NCBI GenBank assembly: GCA_019359115.1
Contig: JAHHHW010000111.1
Location: 1 to 45,377, forward strand
Origin: Pelatocladus maniniholoensis HA4357-MV3
GTDB lineage: Bacteria; Cyanobacteriota; Cyanobacteriia; Cyanobacteriales; Nostocaceae
DNA length: 45,377 bases
Direction: 5' to 3'
Shown: piece after piece, positions 15,690 to 25,784 of the stretch
How positions within the stretch are numbered: the first letter of the stretch is position 1
How the letters are laid out: every line of letters begins with the position of its first letter
Notes under the pieces: generated by a model
Database searches by the model: none
The model's input: the letters and a program-made list of their open reading frames with translations, nothing else
What the model was told of the DNA's origin: nothing
Translations under genes and position numbers: made by a program

Positions 15690-15719
15690 TGATTTACATT
15701 GTGCCTTATATACAATACT

Positions 15720-16484
15720 ATGAAAGACATTTCTCAAAAAGGTATAAATTCTGAGGAAATTATCAACTACCTCAAAAGTGAAATGACTTTGAGGCAAGTA
15801 TGTCAAAAAATCTTATATCAAAGAATTATAGACAATGCAGCCCAAGAGAGGGGCATAATTGTTACTACAGAAGAAATTGAAATTGAGGCAGATCGTCAAC
15901 GTCGTGAACAGCGTTTAGAAAAAGCTGTTGATACATTGACCTGGTTAGCAGAGCAATTTGTTAGTCCCTATGATTGGGAGGTTGGAATTCGCAATCAACT
16001 GCTAGCACTAAAAGTAGCACAAACACTCTTTGATAAAGAGGTAAAAAAGTTTTTTAACCAAAATCGACAAGAATTTGAGCAAGTCATTCTTTATCAAATG
16101 ATAGTGACGTCCGAAAAACTTGCTCAAGAACTTTATTATCAAATTGAAGAGGGCGAAATTAGTTTATATGATGCGGCTCACATTTATGACATTGATGATA
16201 ACCGTAGACATAAATGTGGTTATGAAGGGACAATTTATCGTTGGGCTATCCAAGCAAATATAGGTGAGCTTGTATTTAGTACTCCTCCCAAACAATTAAT
16301 TGGTCCATTAAAAAGTGAACAAGGCTACCATCTTCTTATGGTCGAACAATTTATTATAGCAGAATTAACACCTCAAAGGCATGAAGAAATTCTCCAGAAT
16401 ATGTTTCAACAATGGCTGAATAGTGAAGTGCAGTATTTGTTAAATTCTGATGGAATTTATATAGATACATTAGAGATGCATTAG
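15720..16484 (+). CDS. Parvulin/SurA-like (PpiC-type) protein of peptide-export island
   Basis: About 254 residues from ATG 15720; an in-frame TTG at 15699 is possible but has no better ribosome-binding site. The protein resembles SurA/PpiC peptidyl-prolyl isomerases: an N-terminal helical chaperone-like part (about 15-120), a parvulin-like part with ELYYQIEEGEISLYDAAHIY and a C-terminal IGPLKSEQGYHLLMVE strand pair. It has no signal peptide, so it should act in the cytoplasm. It is a paralogue of the 22382-23146 product. Such proteins often accompany C39-ABC exporters in cyanobacterial bacteriocin clusters; a role as chaperone for precursors or exporter is inferred. Isomerase activity is not assured. 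Confidence 0.78.
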   Translation: MKDISQKGINSEEIINYLKSEMTLRQVCQKILYQRIIDNAAQERGIIVTTEEIEIEADRQRREQRLEKAVDTLTWLAEQFVSPYDWEVGIRNQLLALKVAQTLFDKEVKKFFNQNRQEFEQVILYQMIVTSEKLAQELYYQIEEGEISLYDAAHIYDIDDNRRHKCGYEGTIYRWAIQANIGELVFSTPPKQLIGPLKSEQGYHLLMVEQFIIAELTPQRHEEILQNMFQQWLNSEVQYLLNSDGIYIDTLEMH

Positions 16485-17562
16485 AGATACAAACCAGATA
16501 TAAAATAGATACAAAAATATATTTTTAACACGTTATATTTTTTGAATACAATAATTTTAATTCTTAGCCATATAAACACCGATATTTAATGGGTTTTATC
16601 ACACAAAAAGACGTCATATCGAAAACTTATGAGGCTTGGAGATAATTAAATGGACAAAAAAAGGGAGAAAATCTTTAAAATTAATAATCAGGTAAGCTTT
16701 ACTCGCTAAGAGTTTTATTTTTAAGCTCTAATATGTTTTATTGTCTCTTTTTCAATTAATTAAATTGATAGTCATACACAACAATTATTCTTAAAGAGTT
16801 GATAAAGGAATCATGAAACAGTAAGCAAATATTGTAAAACTAAGTAAAATATATTGAAAAGCTTTTGAGATATATACAGAATAATTAAAGATAGCAAATA
16901 CTGTATAGCTTGAAAAACTCATACTCTTGGACAAAATTAAATTTTTATAAACTTTGTGTGTTCGGTTTTACTAAAAAGGATTATTTATGAGCCAATTCAG
17001 TCTTTTGATAGATTACTAGGAAAGTATTAAAACACAAAAATAGGGATTGCAATGGTCTTATGATTATTAAAATAATAATCAATTTGTTGACCAAAACATA
17101 AGGGGAATTATCTTTCTACCTACTGATAGCGCTTAGATAGCCTTTACTTCTACACAAGAGATAGACTCTTATGATAATTGAGTAAACCTCAATGCAGAAG
17201 CATCATTATCAATATTGCTTGTTGCTGTCATAAATCATTTGTCATTCATAGAATATTCATTTCCAAATGGCTAATGATAAATGATCTGAAAACTCCAACT
17301 GAAAGACATTATTTCGGCTTGATTCAAATTTAATTCAAGCTTTGCATTACTGTAGAAAATTACCGTAGAAAGTAAGCTGATATCTTGTATCAAGCGACAA
17401 GAAGCCACACGCCAGCGCTATTAGTCCACCACACATTGGATGTGGCGGACTACTAAGTGCAAAATCTGAGCTAACTCTTTTGTGTAGCGATGAAGATTTA
17501 ACAAAAATAATTTTAAAAACAGCTGCGGCGGATTCGTGTATTTGATTCCTGGAGGTGAGCGG
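16485..17562. other. 1.1-kb AT-rich region without a supported gene, upstream of the exporter
   Basis: No ORF with a ribosome-binding site and coding character was found; the few ATG-initiated frames are under 20 codons. A stem at 17422-17452 pairs TAGTCCACCACA with TGTGGCGGACTA (one mismatch) about 110 nt before the exporter start. The length suggests a long regulatory region or untranslated leader for the exporter operon. Small RNAs cannot be excluded. Confidence 0.5.
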
Positions 17563-20500
17563 GTGTTATCTGTGTTTTCTGAGCAAGAACTAGTGACTCA
17601 ACAACTCACTGTAACTTTCGGTGAGACGCTCTCAAAAAAGGAGTTAGACGACTATTTGGCGGCAGTGGAAATTATAGAACCACCACCGACACAGCAGTTT
17701 TGGCAAGCCACAGAAACTCAAGCAGGAATTTATATTGTCATTGCAGGCAAAGTTAGACTGCTAGATAGTTGTGATAACTTGATTGCTACTCTGACAAAAG
17801 GAGGAACATTTGGTGAAATCACTCTATTTCCCACAGCACAATTCCAGCCATATGCAGCTAGAGCTTCCCATCGCTTAAAACTTTGCTATCTCAAAGATGA
17901 GGAAATGCAGAGATTGATGCATAACTCTGCTCAAATCCGCGATCGCCTTTATCAAAAAGCAGAAATTTGGGATCTGTTGCTTGGTTATAGCCAAAACTCA
18001 TCACAGCATCAGATATCTGTGCCAGAAATGTTCAAAGTTTTATCTCTATGTGAACGGCGCAGTCTGGAAATTGGTTCTCTACCTATCGAACTATACCAAG
18101 ATAAGCAACTATGGCTACTCTATCGAGGAAAACTGCTTCATACTGATGGTCAAAGACTAACTCAGGGAGATATTTGTGTTCCAAAGACGCAAACTCACTG
18201 GCAGGTAGCTGCACCTACAATTATCTACAGTCTCAAACGTTCTCAGTGGCAAACAGCATTGCAATACTGGCCACAACTAGGGAATATTGATGGTTTTGAT
18301 TCAACACAAATTGTCATTGACGAGAAGGAAACACCACCAGTCAACAAACCTGAACGTTACAGAAAAATTATTCCTTTTCCCGTACCAGAAACATCTACAA
18401 AACAACCAAAACAGCTAAAACAACTAAAACCAGAGCGAACAAAACTACGCCCTTATTTTCCCAGTCCGAAGGTGCAAATCGGGCATTGGTGGGGACGCCT
18501 TACCTGTCGCTATCCCTTTTATGCTCAACAAAGTGCTTCTGACTGTGGTGCTGCTTGCTTGGTAATGATTGGTAGCTATTGGGGTAAGCACTTTAGTGTT
18601 AATCGTCTGCGGGATATGACCAACGTCAGCCGTAGTGGGGCATCTTTACGCGCTATTGCTGCAACTGCTGAAAGCCTTGGTTTTGTTACCCGGCCTGTGA
18701 AAGCCAGTTTTGATAAATTGGCAGAACAAGCTTTACCTGGAATTATTCATTGGGAAGGTAAGCACTTTATCGTTGTCTATGAAATAACGAAAAAGCATGT
18801 GGTTGTGGGTGATCCTGCGATCGGTCAACGCACTCTCACCCCCAAGGAATTTGAAACGGGTTGGACTGGTTATGCATTGTTGCTACAACCCACAGTTCTA
18901 CTTAAAGATGCCAAAAATAACACTGCTAGCCTTTGGAAGTTTTTTGACTTAGTCAAACCTCACCATAAGGTACTGCTAGAAATATTCTTTGCCTCAGTCT
19001 TAATTCAGTTATTTGGATTAGTAACACCAGTTTTCACCCAGTTACTATTAGACCGGGTGTTAGTACAACGCAGTTTTACCACCTTAAATGCTATTGCTTT
19101 AGGGATGATCATTTTTGGTTTGTTCCGAGTGATCATGAATGGAGTGCGGCAATATTTGCTGGATCACACTGCCAACCGCGTTAGTGTTGCCTTACTAGTA
19201 GGATTTATCAAACATACTTTCAGTTTACCTCTCTCGTATTTTGAGTCTCGTTATGTTGGGGACATAGTCTCCCGCGTCCAAGAAAATGAAAAAATTCAAC
19301 GCTTCTTGACTGGACAGACATTGTCTATCTTGCTGGATTTGCTGACATTGGTAATTTATCTAGGCATGATGTTCTGGTATAGCTGGCGCATGGCATTGTT
19401 TGTATTGTTCACTGTACCGCCATTTTTTATCTTGGCGCTGGCTAGCACTAGTATTTTACGCCGCATTTCCAGAGAGATTTTTAATGCTGGGGCAGAAGAA
19501 AATAGCTATCTAATCGAGTCCTTGACAGGGATTCGCACTGTTCGTTCATTGTCTATAGAACAGACAGTGCGCTGGCGTTGGGAAGAGCTACTGAATAAAT
19601 TGATTAAAAAAGCCTTTAATGCTCAGATCATCAGCAACCGCCTCACTGTCATTACTGGTGTAATTGAAACCTTCGTGAATACCTCCTTACTCTGGTATGG
19701 AGCATCGTTAGTTATTAATCAAGAACTAACGATTGGGCAGTTGGTTGCTTTCAACATGCTAGTAGGTTATGTGATCAGTCCTTTTCAAAGGCTGTCACTG
19801 CTATGGAATCAATTACAGGAAATTGTTATTTCCACCGAACGTATCAATGATGTTCTAGAGGCAGAACCAGAAGAAGATTTACAACATAAACCCCGTCAAT
19901 CTTTGGGTAGTCTTCGTGGTCATATTAATTTTCAAAATGTTACCTTTCGCTACCACCCAGAAAGTGATACCAACGTCTTAGAAAATATCAACTTTGAAAT
20001 TCAACCAGAGCAAATGATCGCTGTGGTTGGACGTAGTGGTTCTGGGAAAACCACACTCAGCAAATTGATTTTGGGTTTATATCCACCGAGTGATGGCAAA
20101 GTATTCATTGATGGTCAAGATGTCAATAATATTTCCCTGCGATCGCTCCGTTCTCAAGTTGGTGTAGTAGACCAAGATTCCTTCCTTTTTGGTGGTACTA
20201 TTCGCGAAAATATTGCCATAGCTCATCCAGATGCTTCTTTGGAACAAATCATCCAAGCAGCACAAATGGCGGGAGCAGATGAATTTATCCAGCAACTACC
20301 ACTAGGTTATGAAACCCAAATCGGTGAAGGTGGTGGAATGCTCTCCGGTGGACAACGCCAACGTCTAGCGATCGCTCGTGCTTTACTAGGAAATCCCCGC
20401 TTGTTGCTTTTGGATGAAGCCACCAGTCATCTAGATGCTGAATCAGAACGCATTATTCAAAATAATCTCAAAACCATTCTCAAAGAACGCACAAGTGTGA

Positions 20501-20655
20501 TCATTGCCCATCGTCTTTCTACTGTCCGTAACGCTGACTTAATTCTGGTTCTAGATCGTGGCTTATTGGTAGAAAGCGGAACCCATGACAAACTCATCGC
20601 CAAAAAAGGTCACTACTATTACCTAAATCAACAACAGTTATCTCAAACAGGTTAA
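17563..20655 (+). CDS. C39-peptidase ABC exporter with N-terminal cNMP-binding-like region (PCAT, HetC-like)
   Basis: About 1030 residues. Residues 1-250 contain a cyclic-nucleotide-binding-like fold (IVIAGKVRLLD...GGTFGEI) and a degenerate second copy. The C39 peptidase lies at about 310-440 with Gln and Cys in QQSASDCGAAC (Cys328), His401 in GKHFIVVY and Asp in VVGDPA, a complete triad for cutting after double glycine. Six-helix membrane domain at about 460-750. Nucleotide-binding domain with Walker A GRSGSGKTT (about 823), signature LSGGQRQR, Walker B LLLLDEATS and switch IAHRLS. I choose GTG 17563 because GGAGGTGA (17551-17558) precedes it; GTG 17536 has no such site. The product should cleave and export the GG-leader peptides encoded downstream. 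HetC has the same architecture, but no hetP is nearby. Confidence 0.93.
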   Translation: MLSVFSEQELVTQQLTVTFGETLSKKELDDYLAAVEIIEPPPTQQFWQATETQAGIYIVIAGKVRLLDSCDNLIATLTKGGTFGEITLFPTAQFQPYAARASHRLKLCYLKDEEMQRLMHNSAQIRDRLYQKAEIWDLLLGYSQNSSQHQISVPEMFKVLSLCERRSLEIGSLPIELYQDKQLWLLYRGKLLHTDGQRLTQGDICVPKTQTHWQVAAPTIIYSLKRSQWQTALQYWPQLGNIDGFDSTQIVIDEKETPPVNKPERYRKIIPFPVPETSTKQPKQLKQLKPERTKLRPYFPSPKVQIGHWWGRLTCRYPFYAQQSASDCGAACLVMIGSYWGKHFSVNRLRDMTNVSRSGASLRAIAATAESLGFVTRPVKASFDKLAEQALPGIIHWEGKHFIVVYEITKKHVVVGDPAIGQRTLTPKEFETGWTGYALLLQPTVLLKDAKNNTASLWKFFDLVKPHHKVLLEIFFASVLIQLFGLVTPVFTQLLLDRVLVQRSFTTLNAIALGMIIFGLFRVIMNGVRQYLLDHTANRVSVALLVGFIKHTFSLPLSYFESRYVGDIVSRVQENEKIQRFLTGQTLSILLDLLTLVIYLGMMFWYSWRMALFVLFTVPPFFILALASTSILRRISREIFNAGAEENSYLIESLTGIRTVRSLSIEQTVRWRWEELLNKLIKKAFNAQIISNRLTVITGVIETFVNTSLLWYGASLVINQELTIGQLVAFNMLVGYVISPFQRLSLLWNQLQEIVISTERINDVLEAEPEEDLQHKPRQSLGSLRGHINFQNVTFRYHPESDTNVLENINFEIQPEQMIAVVGRSGSGKTTLSKLILGLYPPSDGKVFIDGQDVNNISLRSLRSQVGVVDQDSFLFGGTIRENIAIAHPDASLEQIIQAAQMAGADEFIQQLPLGYETQIGEGGGMLSGGQRQRLAIARALLGNPRLLLLDEATSHLDAESERIIQNNLKTILKERTSVIIAHRLSTVRNADLILVLDRGLLVESGTHDKLIAKKGHYYYLNQQQLSQTG

Positions 20656-20795: not shown

Positions 20796-22328
20796 ATGCC
20801 ATATCCACATGCGAACTCTTCATCTGCACTGGTCAACGAACCAGATAATAAACAAAGCTACCCACAGACTCAGGAATTTACTCAGCCAAAGGAACATATC
20901 AAAGATTGGCATTATGCCACTGAAGAGTTACTAGATGCCTTACCGAGAGTTTGGACTCGTAGTGTTCTTTATGCACTTATAGGTTTTACAGTTCTTGCCT
21001 TACCTTGGTCAGTGCTTACCAAGGTAGATGAGACTGGTAACGCCAGAGGACGTATAGAACCTAAAGGTTCAACCCAGAAACTAGATGCACTGTCAAGCGG
21101 GAGTGTGAAGGCTGTCCAAGTTAAGGAAGGTGACACTGTTCAAGCTGGGCAAGTTCTGCTGGAACTTGAATCTGATATCTTGCAAACGGAACTCCAACAA
21201 GCTCAAGAAAAACTGACTGGATTGCTCAATCAGCGATCGCAGTTTGATCTACTCAAAAACCAACTCCAGTTGACGCTTGGAGTTCAGGAGCAACAAAACA
21301 AATCTCAAGCATTAGAAAAAATATCCCAAGTCAACCAAGCAAAACAGGAACTGGATGCCAAACAGAGTACCTACAACTTACAAAAGTTAGAAAAACAGTC
21401 ATCACTCAACCAAGCACAGGAACAAATTTCTACGAGTCATAATGACCTGAAATCGGCTGAAGAACGTTTGAAGCTAGATTCCAGAATAGTTCATCGCTTT
21501 AGTAAATTGTTACAGGATGGTGCGGTATCCATAACTCAAATTGACCAACTCAAAAAAGAGCAACAGCAAAGCAAGCAAATGTATGAAAAGGCTCAATCTG
21601 ATGTTAAACAAGCTCAATTGCGCTTGGCGGGGGAACAGAGCCGTTATCAAGCAACAGTCAATCAGTTGGAGTCTGATATAGAGAAAGCAAAACTGCAATT
21701 ACAAGGGGAGCAAAGCAATTATCAAAGCTTATTACAAGCTGGTAAATTGGCGATTCTCAAAAATCAGCAACAATTCAAAGACTTGCAAACACAAATCACT
21801 AGCTTAGAATCTCAAATTGCTCAAATCAAAAGCCAAATGGCATCTTTAAAGCTTCAGTTACAGCAACGAATAGTGCGATCGCCTGTTAATGGTGTAGTTT
21901 TTGAGTTGCCAGTCACAAAGCCAGGAGCAGTAGTACAACTTGGTCAAAGAGTAGCCCAAATTGCGCCTAAAAATACGCCTTTCATCCTGAAAGCTCAGAT
22001 GCCTAGTCAACAAAGTGGCTTCTTGAAAGTAGGAATGCCAGTCAAAATCAAGTTAGATGCCTATCCTTTCCAACAGTATGGTATTGCCCAAGGCAAAGTT
22101 ACTTGGATATCTCCCGACTCGAAAGTTAGTCAAACACCCCAAGGAAAACTAGAAAGCTTTGATTTAGACATCGCTTTAGATCAGCAATATCTCCAAAATG
22201 GCAACCAACGTATTCCGTTGAATCCTGGTCAGACAGCAACCGCAGAAGTTGTTATTCGTCAACGACGGGTGATTGACTTTGTCTTAGATCCATTCCAGCG
22301 ACTGCAAAAAGATGGCTTGAAGCTTTAG
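20796..22328 (+). CDS. HlyD-family membrane fusion protein
   Basis: 510 residues. This is the periplasmic adaptor that links the inner-membrane C39-ABC exporter to an outer-membrane channel. One membrane helix (about 55-75) follows a cytoplasmic N-terminus. A split lipoyl-like domain has its first half at about 95-125 (GSVKAVQVKEGDTVQAGQVLLEL) and its second at about 360-395 (VRSPVNGVVFELPV). Between them is a very Gln/Lys-rich coiled coil (about 125-355). A beta-barrel and membrane-proximal region end the protein. AAGGA lies close before ATG 20796. The gene is 140 nt behind the exporter on the same strand. No TolC homologue is in the window. Confidence 0.93.
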   Translation: MPYPHANSSSALVNEPDNKQSYPQTQEFTQPKEHIKDWHYATEELLDALPRVWTRSVLYALIGFTVLALPWSVLTKVDETGNARGRIEPKGSTQKLDALSSGSVKAVQVKEGDTVQAGQVLLELESDILQTELQQAQEKLTGLLNQRSQFDLLKNQLQLTLGVQEQQNKSQALEKISQVNQAKQELDAKQSTYNLQKLEKQSSLNQAQEQISTSHNDLKSAEERLKLDSRIVHRFSKLLQDGAVSITQIDQLKKEQQQSKQMYEKAQSDVKQAQLRLAGEQSRYQATVNQLESDIEKAKLQLQGEQSNYQSLLQAGKLAILKNQQQFKDLQTQITSLESQIAQIKSQMASLKLQLQQRIVRSPVNGVVFELPVTKPGAVVQLGQRVAQIAPKNTPFILKAQMPSQQSGFLKVGMPVKIKLDAYPFQQYGIAQGKVTWISPDSKVSQTPQGKLESFDLDIALDQQYLQNGNQRIPLNPGQTATAEVVIRQRRVIDFVLDPFQRLQKDGLKL

Positions 22329-22381: not shown

Positions 22382-23146
22382 ATGGCTAAAAATCTCACTG
22401 TGACTTCTTCAGACATCATTCGCAACATCAAACTTTCTTGCCACATTCCTATAGTTGTGGAGGCGATCGCATCTGAAAAAATCATTGCTGAAGCAGCTAA
22501 AGAAGCTGGTATTCAAATCGAGAAAGCAGAACTTCAAGAAGAAGGAGACAAGCTGCGCCTAGAGAAGAAACTCATCAAAGCAAAAGATACTTGGGAATGG
22601 CTCAAAAAACATCATCTATCTTTAGATGAGTTTGAAGAATTAATCTACAATCAAGTCCTCTCTAATAAATTGGCAGATTATTTATTTGCAGATCATGTCG
22701 AAAAGTTCTTTTACCAAAATCAACTTGAGTATCTAGCTGCTGTTACCTACGAAATCATCCTTGAAGATAGAGATTTAGCTTTGGAATTGTTTTATGAACT
22801 AGAAGAAGGTGAAACCAGTTTTTCAGAAATCGCCCGTCAATATATCCAAGTACCAGAATTACGTCGTGCTGGTGGATATCAAGGAATTCGACGCCGCAAA
22901 GAATTTCGCCCAGAAATTGCAGCTGCCGTGTTTGCGGCAACTCCACCTCAAATTATCAAACCAATTACAACTCCTAAAGGAGTATATTTAATTTGGGTTG
23001 AGGAAATAATTCAACCCAAATTAAATGACCAATTATATAAACAAATAATTTTTGAATTGTTCTCTGATTGGTTAAAACAACAAATCGAAAGCATGGAAAT
23101 AGTGATTGAATTAGATACAACTATCAATCAACTTAACATCATTTAA
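22382..23146 (+). CDS. Second parvulin/SurA-like (PpiC-type) protein of the island
   Basis: 254 residues, paralogous to the 15720-16484 product. The two share layout and blocks such as (V/K)KFFxQN, ELxYxxEEGExS and the C-terminal PIxTxxGxxLxxVE. An N-terminal helical part is followed by a parvulin-like domain (about 120-215) with GGYQGIRRRKEF. There is no signal peptide, so it is expected in the cytoplasm. It starts 53 nt after hlyD and probably shares its transcript; AAGGGA precedes the ATG. Inferred role: chaperone or maturation factor for the GG-peptides encoded directly downstream, or for assembly of the exporter. Confidence 0.82.
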   Translation: MAKNLTVTSSDIIRNIKLSCHIPIVVEAIASEKIIAEAAKEAGIQIEKAELQEEGDKLRLEKKLIKAKDTWEWLKKHHLSLDEFEELIYNQVLSNKLADYLFADHVEKFFYQNQLEYLAAVTYEIILEDRDLALELFYELEEGETSFSEIARQYIQVPELRRAGGYQGIRRRKEFRPEIAAAVFAATPPQIIKPITTPKGVYLIWVEEIIQPKLNDQLYKQIIFELFSDWLKQQIESMEIVIELDTTINQLNII

Positions 23147-23560
23147 TCAAATTAGAAAATAACTGATTCTTTTTTCAAAGAAGTAAATTAATTGTTTCAC
23201 AAACACTCTTGCATGGTGAAGTTGGGTCGTTTTTTTTTGCAAATAAACATGTTTCAAATAAATATATATGAAAAATAAAAATTAACATTTCTTCAAAATA
23301 AATCTAAAAGTTTGATAGAGACAATAAAAATACTTTTATTGTCTAAAATTGCATACAACAATGCTTGTTTCTTTGCATAGAAATAATATATTGATATGGC
23401 AAGCCTGTAGATCATATATTAGTTTTTTAAATAAAAAAATATTCAAATAACTCTTGTATTTTTATGGCGATGAGATAAATTAAAAATAGTTAGCAATACA
23501 AATTAGATTGGTTGCTAAACTAAAAGCAAGAAAGAATTAATCAATTCTCAGGTGAAATCT
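23147..23560 (+). other. AT-rich leader region before the precursor-gene array
   Basis: 414 nt with no coding capacity I can support. It probably holds the promoter of the precursor array, which would let the peptides be expressed apart from the exporter genes. TAGCAA (about 23491) and TTGCTA (about 23512) can pair. The last 40 nt resemble the conserved end of the later spacers (TTAAT.AATT..CAGG.GAAA.CT). Confidence 0.45.
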
Positions 23561-23722
23561 ATGATTATTTCTGATCTGAATCAAATTGAATCTGTTGAAT
23601 CTAGTCAAGTAATTGGTGGGGGCTGCTGTTGTTACAAGAAGTATGACAAGTGTGACGACGACAGCGCTACTGCTGTTGCTGTTGCTATTGCTGCGGCTAA
23701 AAGTGGTGGTTGGGGCTACTAA
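23561..23722 (+). CDS. Double-glycine leader peptide precursor 1 (Cys-cluster core)
   Basis: 53 codons, too short for usual gene finding. The leader MIISDLNQIESVESSQVIGG ends in the GG cut by C39 peptidases. The 33-residue core starts G then CCC, has a fourth Cys at residue 31 and an Asp run, and ends in an Ala/Val-rich stretch and GWGY. AGGTGA lies 5 nt before the ATG. It is the first of four cassettes. Expected fate: leader removal and export by the 17563-20655 transporter. Antibacterial, signalling or metal-binding activity cannot be decided; the Cys cluster could form disulfides or bind metal. Confidence 0.85.
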   Translation: MIISDLNQIESVESSQVIGGGCCCYKKYDKCDDDSATAVAVAIAAAKSGGWGY

Positions 23723-23887
23723 ATTTTGAATAATGTAACCAATAAAAAATAAGTTGGTTACTCGTAGGATATCTGATTATTCAAAGTTTAATTAATCACT
23801 ATCGGTGATGCTAAATCGTAGATCAGTACTTTTCAGATATCCTTGAAATCACAGCAATTACCATTAATTAATTCCCAGGAGAAACTC

Positions 23888-24064
23888 ATGATTATTTCTG
23901 ATCTGAATCACATCGAATCTGTTGAATCTAATCAAGTCGTTGGTGGTTGTGGTCATCGCTACTATGGCGGATATGGCAAGAAGTATGACGGATATGGTGG
24001 TGACAATGCTACTGCTGTTGCTGTTGCTATTGCTGCGGCCAATAGCGATGGTTGGGGCTACTAA
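23888..24064 (+). CDS. Double-glycine leader peptide precursor 2
   Basis: 58 codons from ATG 23888, placed by AGGAGAA at 23877-23883; a longer in-frame start at 23843 lies in the conserved spacer and is not credible. The leader MIISDLNHIESVESNQVVGG is nearly the same as in precursor 1. The core has one Cys directly after GG, then Gly/Tyr-rich YYGGYGKKYDGYGG, the Ala/Val-rich ATAVAVAIAAA stretch and a GWGY end. Its protein is identical to that of precursor 3. Likely substrate of the C39-ABC exporter upstream. Confidence 0.87.
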   Translation: MIISDLNHIESVESNQVVGGCGHRYYGGYGKKYDGYGGDNATAVAVAIAAANSDGWGY

Positions 24065-24229
24065 GTTTTGAATAATGTAACCAATAAAAAATAAGTTGGT
24101 TACTCAGAGGATGTCTGATTAGTCAAACTTTCATTAATCACCATTGGTGATGATAAATCGCAATCCAGTACTTTTCAGATATCCTTGAAATCACAGCAAT
24201 TACCATTAATTAATTCCCAGGAGAAACTC

Positions 24230-24406
24230 ATGATTATTTCTGATCTGAATCACATCGAATCTGTTGAATCTAATCAAGTCGTTGGTGGTTGTGGTCATCG
24301 CTACTATGGCGGATATGGCAAGAAGTATGACGGATATGGTGGTGACAATGCTACTGCTGTTGCTGTTGCTATTGCTGCGGCCAATAGCGATGGTTGGGGC
24401 TATTAA
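24230..24406 (+). CDS. Double-glycine leader peptide precursor 3 (protein identical to 2)
   Basis: 58 codons from ATG 24230 after AGGAGAA. The coding sequence differs from precursor 2 at only one base that I find (final Tyr codon TAT instead of TAC), giving the same protein. The flanking spacers differ at about ten positions. This points to recent gene conversion or duplication and to a dosage effect, with two genes for one peptide. Structure and expected processing are as for precursor 2. Confidence 0.87.
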   Translation: MIISDLNHIESVESNQVVGGCGHRYYGGYGKKYDGYGGDNATAVAVAIAAANSDGWGY

Positions 24407-24571
24407 GTCATGAAAAATGTAACCAATAAAAAATAAATTGGTTATTCACAGGATGTCTGATTAGTCAAACTTCCATTAATCACCATTAGTGATGATAAAT
24501 CGCAACCCAGTACTTTTCAGACATCCTTGAAATCACAGCAATTACCATTAATTAATTCCCAGGAGAAACTC

Positions 24572-24706
24572 ATGATTATTTCTGACCTACAGCACATCGA
24601 ATCTGTTGAATCTAATCAAATTATTGGTGGTTACCACAAAAAAGGCAAATACAGAGATAAAGGCAAATATAAGTATTACAAACACTATAATAGTTACAAG
24701 GACTGA
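24572..24706 (+). CDS. Double-glycine leader peptide precursor 4 (Lys/Tyr-rich core)
   Basis: 44 codons. The leader MIISDLQHIESVESNQIIGG matches the other three, but the core is unrelated: 24 residues with 8 Lys and 7 Tyr, no Cys and no Ala/Val tail. It is therefore short and strongly cationic. AGGAGAA lies 5 nt before the ATG. The same leader with a swapped core implies that the exporter recognises only the leader. A cationic antimicrobial role is possible; that is inference from charge alone. A small stem, TACCAGGT 24757-24764 with ACCTGGTA 24768-24775, follows the array. Confidence 0.83.
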   Translation: MIISDLQHIESVESNQIIGGYHKKGKYRDKGKYKYYKHYNSYKD

Positions 24707-24936
24707 TTACTAGCACACTTATGTAGTATTAGGATGCGAAATCTCCAAACCCTTGTTACCAGGTTCAACCTGGTAAAGAGAATAATAGTCTTTGGTTCTT
24801 GCTGAGAATAGTGCAAGTTATCAGTAGGTGTGGAGTCAGCAACCCCGCTCTTTTGACATGGGACATCAAGTCCACTGGTTGGGGAACTCGTGATATTTTC
24901 AGTGAAGTACATTATCTTGCAAACAAGGATGAAATT

Positions 24937-25242
24937 ATGAGTGGATTAAAAATTGATGACCTAAGTTTTTGTGAAATTGAGGTTTATAATGATCTGAAAG
25001 TTCAGGGTGGTTTATTTCCAAATCAGCTTTTTAAAGGCATTTCAAATATTTTTGGAGACGATTTAGCTGAGTTTGATAAGCATCCAGGAGAATATTCTTT
25101 GGAAAAGGAGACAACAGATAAATTCGGAATCAAGCATAAAATTTCAGCAAAGAAAACTGAAAATAGCAAAGTTATAACTAGTACATCAAACAATACTAAG
25201 GGTGGTGCAGAGTATTTTGGAAGTATATTGTCGGTAATGTAA
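24937..25242 (+). CDS. Probable double-glycine precursor 5, longer core, different leader
   Basis: 101 codons from ATG 24937, chosen because AAGGA (24925-24929) lies 7 nt upstream; the frame is open further back to 24799 but without such a site. The N-terminus MSGLKIDDLSFCEIEVYNDL leads to KVQGG, a GG-type leader whose residues differ from the array leaders. The core of about 76 residues is charged, Lys/Ser/Thr/Asn-rich and has no Cys. A strong hairpin terminator follows at 25302. It may use the same exporter. No family is recognised; it could also be a plain small acidic protein with a chance GG. Confidence 0.6.
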   Translation: MSGLKIDDLSFCEIEVYNDLKVQGGLFPNQLFKGISNIFGDDLAEFDKHPGEYSLEKETTDKFGIKHKISAKKTENSKVITSTSNNTKGGAEYFGSILSVM

Positions 25243-25301
25243 GTAATTTAATCAGTACCTAAAAGTGACACAATTTTTTTGTAATCGGATAGGCGATTGA
25301 G

Positions 25302-25333
25302 TATAGGCATAGCAAAGCTTTGTTATGCCTATA
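25302..25333 (+). terminator. Intrinsic terminator-like hairpin after precursor 5
   Basis: TATAGGCATAGCAAAG (25302-25317) is followed directly by its near-perfect complement CTTTGTTATGCCTATA (one G-T pair). TTTAATTTTGTTG follows on the plus strand. It is 60 nt after the stop codon of the fifth precursor gene and probably ends the plus-strand peptide unit. Confidence 0.7.
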
Positions 25334-25400
25334 TTTAATTTTGTTGTAATAAATATTCTACTGAAGCTATTAAATATGTAATTGAAAGTAATTAAAAATT

Positions 25401-25592: not shown

Positions 25593-25784
25593 TTAAATGT
25601 TTTCCATGATAGAGTCTTGTAAAGTTTTTATAGAAGGTGATATCTCCAGTAGTTTTTCATCAGCTTTTTCTAATCCAGACGTATCATTTGGATTGAAACT
25701 AGTGTAACTATAAAATGATGAACCACCCATTATAGCGTTGGTTAATTCTACTAATTCGTCAAATTTTAAATCAGCAATAATCAT
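25593..25784 (-). CDS. Double-glycine leader peptide precursor 6, minus strand
   Basis: 63 codons. The N-terminus MIIADLKFDELVELTNAIMGG has the same MII(A/S)DL opening and GG end as the plus-strand leaders, so it should be a C39 substrate. The core (about 42 residues) begins with aromatic and Ser-rich SSFYSYTSF and becomes acidic. It lies 41 nt behind the L,D-transpeptidase gene on the same strand, suggesting co-transcription. The -1 frame after its stop stays open and coding-like to 25483, so the gene may be a frameshifted form of a longer peptide. Confidence 0.72.
   Translation of the reverse strand: MIIADLKFDELVELTNAIMGGSSFYSYTSFNPNDTSGLEKADEKLLEISPSIKTLQDSIMENI

Follow-up and report, generated by a model that had tools for sequence, protein, structure and literature searches.

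Judging from its sequence, the window (the whole stretch of 45,377 nucleotides analysed here) probably houses a GG-leader peptide family at a group I-type C39 locus, whose tandem units carry a transposon (MITE) relic and whose fourth gene, g4, is a solitary sister gene copied back into the array. The host is a branched filamentous cyanobacterium with a 6.7 Mb genome. GG-peptide genes at a C39 exporter are a kind of system that is already known; the novelty lies in the transposon-bearing unit, in first genes with an empty site and in the sister-gene copy within the array. Among the matches listed for literature searches on MITEs with cyanobacteria, bacteriocins or precursors, no title or opening of an abstract pointed to a transposon relic in such units. 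A first-pass annotation had already described the GG-peptide array and read it as a modular cassette system; its observation is partly confirmed and its interpretation partly supported.

The array genes and their relatives

Coordinates and translation confirm the four genes of 53, 58, 58 and 44 codons that had been reported here:

23561-23722, + strand: g1, GG-leader precursor, 53 codons without stop, 33-residue core with 4 Cys
23888-24064, + strand: g2, precursor, 58 codons without stop, 38-residue core
24230-24406, + strand: g3, precursor, 58 codons without stop, protein identical to that of g2
24572-24706, + strand: g4, precursor, 44 codons without stop, 24-residue Lys/Tyr-rich core, net charge +7

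All four share a leader of 20 residues that ends in GG. In the pairwise comparison of g1-g4 the leaders are 83-100% identical over 60 nt, and gap-free alignment to the g2 leader gives 53-60 matching positions among the array copies versus 31/60 for the best match outside the array leaders on the + strand; the best match on the - strand (35/60) is itself the leader of another GG gene. The shared leader claimed earlier is thus borne out, far above the best outside match, and the 342-nt period is found in the start-to-start distances of genes 2-4. The statement that the cores differ holds for g4, which has the only unrelated core in the array, and for g1 just behind the GG, where we read GCCCYKKYDKCDDDS versus CGHRYYGGYGKKYDGYGGDN in g2 and g3. 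It fails for g2 and g3, which are separated by one synonymous base change in 177 nt, and for the tail ATAVAVAIAAA..GWGY, which is common to g1, g2 and g3.

Could the array be an expanding repeat with decayed open frames, and hence a set of non-functional relics? The frames are indeed short. Pfam gave no match for g2 and g4, and NCBIfam models gave none for g1, g2 and g4 up to E 0.1 (NHLP/Nif11 included) and none for seven related GG proteins up to E 10. However, the leader is kept across genera, the frames are open in the copies listed from seven genomes (a second Westiellopsis copy being only partly readable), and g2 and g3 differ at 1/177 coding positions versus 10/165 in the spacers behind them (p 0.004). 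We consider this explanation very improbable.

The relatives compared were Fischerella sp. PCC 9431, F. thermalis PCC 7521, F. muscicola PCC 7414, F. muscicola PCC 73103, Westiellopsis prolifica IICB1 and the genome G100. The order exporter, HlyD, PpiC, array, 101-aa gene and convergent GG gene is kept in all six (loci L050, L051, L052, L053, L056 and L157). The array has four copies in the window's genome, six in PCC 9431 and three each in PCC 7521, PCC 7414, PCC 73103 and G100; Westiellopsis has at least two, a run of N interrupting its array. The leader-spacer unit is therefore found in relatives, as the first-pass annotation had anticipated, with copy numbers and post-GG residues that vary; we encountered neither unrelated spacers nor non-conserved leaders there. 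The leader strings MIISDL, MIISDLN and IISDLNH had no occurrence that we found in literature text, and a PCC 9431 peptide gave no match to plasmid sequences.

A profile search over 217 genomes of the family gave 64 with a match at E 1e-4 or better. Seven of these are set apart by a best E of 8e-25 or better, namely 4/4 of the window's genus and three genomes of a second genus, these three being the ones among the matches listed and not a measure of presence across that genus; the other 57 have best E values of 1e-11 or weaker. Named loci outside Fischerella and Westiellopsis (in Moorena, Scytonema, Calothrix and others) have the same leader type with longer cores, several of them in tandem, and their precursors measure 63-111 aa. 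The longer precursors (L058, L062, L065, L066, L068 and others) often contain an alternating A-x-A-x-A..G(D/P)xT stretch, which on visual inspection is similar to NVAVAVAVAGDR in the short cores of Fischerella.

How the units change was measured in PCC 9431. In its array genes 2-6, 13 of the 27 gap-free columns directly behind the GG are polymorphic, versus 22/233 in the spacer (p 3e-6), 2/60 in the leader (p 1e-6) and 11/69 in the tail (p 0.003); these p-values are a guide only, because the columns are not independent, the five copies are related and the segment was chosen after the alignment had been seen. The post-GG codons diversify fastest in this one relative measured. In the window the opposite trend is seen as well, with the protein of g2 and g3 kept or made identical.

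Spacers, hairpin and putative transposon relic

The array genes of the window are separated by spacers that contain a hairpin and, behind it, a short element with inverted repeats:

23487-23519, + strand: hairpin upstream of g1, in empty-site context without transposon relic
23723-23887: spacer 1, 165 nt
23733-23765, + strand: spacer hairpin 1, with copies at 24075-24107 and 24417-24449
23766-23843, no strand assigned: putative MITE relic of spacer 1, inverted repeats AGGATATCTGA/TCAGATATCCT
24065-24229: spacer 2, 165 nt
24108-24185, no strand assigned: putative MITE relic of spacer 2
24407-24571: spacer 3, 165 nt
24450-24527, no strand assigned: putative MITE relic of spacer 3

The equal length of 165 nt noted by the first-pass annotation is correct, and the three spacers are homologous DNA, 87-94% identical in a gap-free alignment. 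Their length is equal because they are homologous and the unit was tandemly duplicated, recently. In five Fischerella relatives, 13 homologous spacers run to 233-258 nt; since they differ in length, we reject a functional constraint on spacer length, and the idea that the constancy is a design feature is not upheld.

Hairpin arms of the AAxCAA/TTGyTT type were present in 20/20 upstream regions of array genes compared, with six pairs complete in 19. One pair occurs as G-C four, C-G seven and T-A nine times in these 20 regions when the 3' arm is allowed to slide; in a fixed-register alignment of ten spacers the variable pair is broken in 3/10. A protein-bound dyad would look the same as a hairpin here. 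A TACAAT or TATATT box stands directly before the hairpin 5' of the first array genes in five relatives (L024 10766-10875 and the matching place in L025, L026, L027 and L052), so placed that the mRNA may start right at the hairpin. An Rfam scan of the region gave no match up to E 1. Promoters from a consensus scan were rejected, with 7 sites found versus 15.2 expected from shuffles.

The element behind the hairpin of the later array genes is bounded by AGGATGTYTGA.../...TCARACATCCT and measures 77 nt in the window versus 156-165 nt in the 11 measured spacers of relatives. Genome-wide, the 16-base repeat-end pattern (up to 2 mismatches) gave 82 matches versus 3 for a backward control; 7/82 lie within the array and the solitary sister gene described below, and 75/82 outside them. 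We took 20 stretches with such ends, 19 chosen for paired-looking ends and one single-ended. Of the 19 paired-end elements, 16 are flanked by a perfect 3-bp target duplication (TNA). Two of the 19, with lengths of 941 and 1037 bp, code for IS4/IS5-type transposases containing DUF4096 and DDE domains, and the remaining 17 measure 125-582 bp. The array element thereby shares its terminal inverted repeats with a transposase-encoding IS of the same genome. Passages of PMC10969869 describe MITEs of IS4/IS5 type as short and intergenic, with inverted repeats shared with transposase-encoding IS and a 3-bp target duplication.

In some relatives' spacers the likeness also extends inward from the ends. 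For three of the elements (L114-L116), alignments with the relatives' array spacers span up to 49 nt, a repeat end included, the best matches in the 20-sequence set being to PCC 73103 (E 6e-11, 85% over 47 nt) and PCC 7521 (E 3e-9, 87% over 39 nt). With the 18-nt ends removed, an inner match of 24-28 nt at 86-92% was left in three spacers of PCC 73103 and PCC 7521, scoring 33.7-36.5 bits versus 26.5 for the best of 300 shuffles; PCC 9431, PCC 7414 and the second PCC 7521 spacer reached 25.6-27.4 bits, not clearly above shuffles. The window spacers match a MITE at the ends only, and in spacer 3 only (22 nt, E 2e-4); the inner link between window and MITE is short and runs through the relatives' spacers. 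The target-duplication flanks of the array relic are imperfect, TAA/TGA in PCC 9431 and worn in the window.

The element is absent from the first array genes (6/6), in which hairpin and ribosome-binding region are adjacent, and present in 14/14 later array genes compared. The first genes thus seem to be the empty-site form, and the spacer element seems, from its sequence, to be what remains of an IS5-type MITE. The simplest history is a single insertion in an ancestral copy that then multiplied with the gene. Unlike usual MITEs, this one insertion was apparently copied with the gene unit and is now part of each array spacer.

The element might instead be an ancient regulatory inverted repeat that resembles MITE ends by convergence. 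One stem pair reads A-T, G-T and G-C across the three window spacers, the element is retained in every one of the later units compared, and the inner likeness to MITEs is short, all of which would suit a regulatory repeat. However, three spacers share inner sequence with full MITEs beyond shuffles, the repeat ends match on both sides, the first genes are MITE-free, and the stem is decayed in several relatives. We hold a regulatory origin to be quite improbable and retain the MITE relic as our reading. Another MITE type shares these ends; it is about 150-175 bp long, has CCCTCCCCTT inside and is present in several copies in the window's genome (for example L117-L121, L127, L130 and L131); some longer ones (L123-L125) carry apparent other repeats inserted.

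A solitary sister gene and the proposed origin of g4

We found a fifth leader on contig C154, in a solitary gene whose neighbors are cytochrome oxidase and UbiA-type genes. Solo counterparts stand next to the same UbiA-type gene in 5/5 loci, with one each in PCC 73103, PCC 9431 and PCC 7521; PCC 7414 and G100 each have two. A search of the 13-kb solo-gene locus for relatives of the window exporter found none at E 1e-5. The element upstream of the solo gene is of the short form. Over the 75 nt that precede g2-g4, identity is 83-95% with four solo genes versus 62-75% with nine of the relatives' later array genes, and in a tree of 20 sequences (66 nt upstream plus leader) g2-g4 group with six solo genes with support 99/98, the split between window and solo genes inside this group being weak (60/43). 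The similarity of g4 to the solo gene runs on through core and flank:

24641-24786, + strand: g4 core and 3' flank; 77% identity with solo gene plus 3' flank at C154:34313-34461 (E 2.5e-26)

Starting at about 24746, the window is similar to the sequence that follows the relatives' arrays (89% over 82 nt in PCC 73103, 84% over 80 nt in PCC 9431). The solo-like and the array-end-like sequence overlap, the overlap holding the GTTACCAGGTT.AACCTGGTAA hairpin, and because the two flank matches meet there, g4 has the look of a complete copy of the solo gene, attached to the end of the array within shared sequence. We favor the direction from solo locus to array since all 11 relatives' array spacers measured carry the long element. 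This modifies the earlier proposal that new cores are fitted to one leader-spacer unit. The g4 core apparently did arrive together with a leader and an upstream region, but a fitting onto an existing leader is not supported; what was acquired would be a whole gene with its flanks.

Plain tandem duplication, without import and with g4 diverging in place, would account for the gap-free spacers at 87-94% identity and for g2 being equal to g3. It has difficulty with the 77% match of g4 core and 3' flank to the solo gene, and with a solo-type short element and ribosome-binding region in an array whose 11 measured counterparts in relatives have the long element. We think it improbable, and keep to the copied sister gene. 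A second stretch that matches the solo 3' flank, at L030 3546-3629 in F. thermalis PCC 7521, may be what is left of another solo gene since lost.

The history that we propose is read from these comparisons, with the order and direction of events inferred. The repeated unit would consist of hairpin, IS5-type MITE relic, ribosome-binding site, leader and core. A MITE would have inserted into a single ancestral copy, in its 5' region, leaving the MITE-free first genes in the empty-site form; units would then have multiplied in tandem, giving equal spacers in recent copies. In this genome the sister copy beside the cox genes would have been copied back with its flanks as g4, and the sister's version of the MITE-RBS-leader segment also appears to precede g2 and g3.

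Because the later array copies and the solo sister carry the same MITE-to-leader stretch, MITE relic, ribosome-binding region and leader may together act as a recombination platform that lets whole cores pass between two chromosomal loci, with exchange beside the one exporter. We regard this as speculative and on the whole unlikely; if it were true, an immobilised MITE would drive repertoire change in a secreted peptide family. The locus offers a traceable case of possible repertoire growth in short peptides, by tandem copying of the unit, gene copying between loci and fast change behind the cleavage site.

Export locus and possible role of the peptides

The array is flanked by the following genes and signals:

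15699-16484, + strand: PpiC-type rotamase 1 (Pfam PF00639, 1.5e-7)
17536-20655, + strand: C39-ABC exporter of the long type, with N-terminal cNMP-binding (CAP_ED-like) domain, C39 peptidase, TM part and ATPase
20796-22328, + strand: HlyD-type membrane fusion protein (TIGR01843, 240.9 bits, cut-off 208.65)
22382-23146, + strand: PpiC/SurA-type rotamase 2 (PF00639, 1.2e-8)
24937-25242, + strand: 101-aa protein with QGG leader KIDDLSFCEIEVYNDLKVQGG, conserved
25295-25340, + strand: terminator-like hairpin behind the 101-aa gene, from a scan of the region
25593-25784, - strand: convergent GG-leader gene (MIIADL..MGG), MIIADLKFDELVELTNAIMGG; relatives have counterparts in this position

The C39 exporter that had been placed just upstream of the array is indeed nearby and on the same strand, but the HlyD and a PpiC-type protein stand in between. 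Its Pfam domains are PF00027 (34.5 bits, cut-off 27.5), PF03412, PF00664 and PF00005, and its PDB matches are HlyB and 'ABC-type bacteriocin transporter' chains. The peptidase retains Cys337 in QQSASDCGAAC and His410 in GKHFIV, which we take to be the usual catalytic positions of C39 peptidases. Nine C39 domains over the family cut-off occur in the genome, six of them strong; with six strong C39 proteins present, the partner exporter of the array is assigned by position, and cross-use may occur. PpiC rotamase 1 stands upstream of the exporter in 5/5 relatives whose DNA reaches there (L050-L053 and L056). In addition to the four genes described first, we count two further GG-type genes, at 24937-25242 (+) and 25593-25784 (-), so that six adjoin the exporter.

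From gene order and protein families, the locus would work as follows. The precursors would be made from one transcription unit, possibly ending at the terminator-like hairpin (25295-25340). The neighboring ABC protein is expected to cut after Gly19-Gly20 through its C39 domain, as leader, family and position suggest; the ABC protein and HlyD would then export cores of 33, 38, 38 and 24 residues, and the PpiC proteins may act as chaperones.

This layout resembles the group I 'bacteriocin' clusters of cyanobacteria outlined in passages of Wang, Fewer and Sivonen (2011, PMC3140520), which a Subsection V survey (PMC4558948, again in passages) counts also in four of the strains compared here. Like these clusters, the window has a long C39 ABC transporter with CAP_ED, an HlyD, a SurA/rotamase and GG precursors nearby. 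Group I clusters have 0.35 precursors on average according to passages of these two papers, whereas six GG-type genes adjoin the exporter here; a further difference from the group I description is that the precursors have no NCBIfam match and that each later array unit compared carries the apparent transposon relic. Marks of other types were looked for in a set of 18 window proteins that covers 14 of the 34 ORFs with at least 120 aa: we recognised no M16 peptidase (mark of group II), no S8 peptidase (mark of group VI) and no LanM-type enzyme. Prochlorosins, too, combine a conserved leader with highly variable cores; they are lanthipeptides made by ProcM-type enzymes. At the window locus LanM was not recognised among the neighbors scanned.

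A second precedent comes from Synechococcus elongatus PCC 7942, where biofilm formation requires the four GG genes ebfG1-4, the secretion of their products being aided by the C39 protein PteB, as passages of PMC4997328 report. EbfG1-3 form amyloid in a heterologous test (PMC9981879, in part), and the mature EbfG is said in passages of both papers to have no homologues in other cyanobacteria. The likeness to the window is one of layout, with several small GG genes in a row and a C39 exporter. EbfG1-4 are described there as partly redundant and as exported by a C39 protein with a neighboring locus number, from which number we infer that pteB lies next to the ebfG genes. HetC of Nostoc PCC 7120 is a C39 peptidase ABC exporter of filamentous cyanobacteria for which passages of PMC10986499 give no identified substrate; hetC is described there as having no nearby membrane fusion protein or GG-leader gene, whereas both are present at the window exporter.

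The array products are likely a family of exported extracellular peptides, as far as the genes tell. Because of the group I layout, the ebfG1-4 precedent and HetC, we rank matrix or surface peptides ahead of bacteriocins, and these ahead of signals. By analogy, an EbfG-like function at the surface or in the matrix is our first choice, with a chance that we put a little short of even. Bacteriocin-like antagonism comes second, as a lesser but serious possibility suggested by the sequence, and signaling third, which on the same grounds seems improbable. The stricter proposal of a multi-peptide bacteriocin, whose cores kill or inhibit related cyanobacteria and diversify in an arms race, draws on the bacteriocin name given by Wang et al. 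to the group in which this C39/HlyD locus falls (PMC3140520, in passages), on post-GG codons that are more variable than the spacer, and on the four Cys of g1 and the strongly cationic g4. We nevertheless deem it rather unlikely. No immunity gene was recognised among the neighbors scanned, passages of PMC3140520 and PMC4558948 contain no report that we found of antimicrobial activity for group I clusters, g2 and g3 are identical, and in S. elongatus a similar gene set serves biofilm formation (PMC4997328, in passages). With six GG-type genes beside one exporter and relatives among named culture strains (Fischerella PCC 9431, 7521, 7414 and 73103), the substrate question is directly testable in such strains.

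Finally, the two GG-type genes behind the array deserve a comment. The 101-aa protein is 65-76% identical in four relatives, with a well-kept middle, DDLAEFDKHPGE..TTD.FGIKHKISAKKT; it gave no match in Pfam and NCBIfam, and its AlphaFold prediction is poor (mean pLDDT 51.4). Its leader KIDDLSFCEIEVYNDLKVQGG fits the spacing of KIxDLxYLEx10GG, the motif of HetP-like precursors in passages of Wang et al. (PMC3140520), with F replacing Y and C replacing L. The terminator scan gave 3 sites in the region versus 1.3 expected from shuffles, and two of the three are the hairpin at 25295-25340. For the convergent GG gene, tblastn aligns 21-23 residues only in PCC 7521, PCC 7414 and G100, about the leader. 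A terminator-like hairpin lies at 25431-25400 on the strand of this gene.
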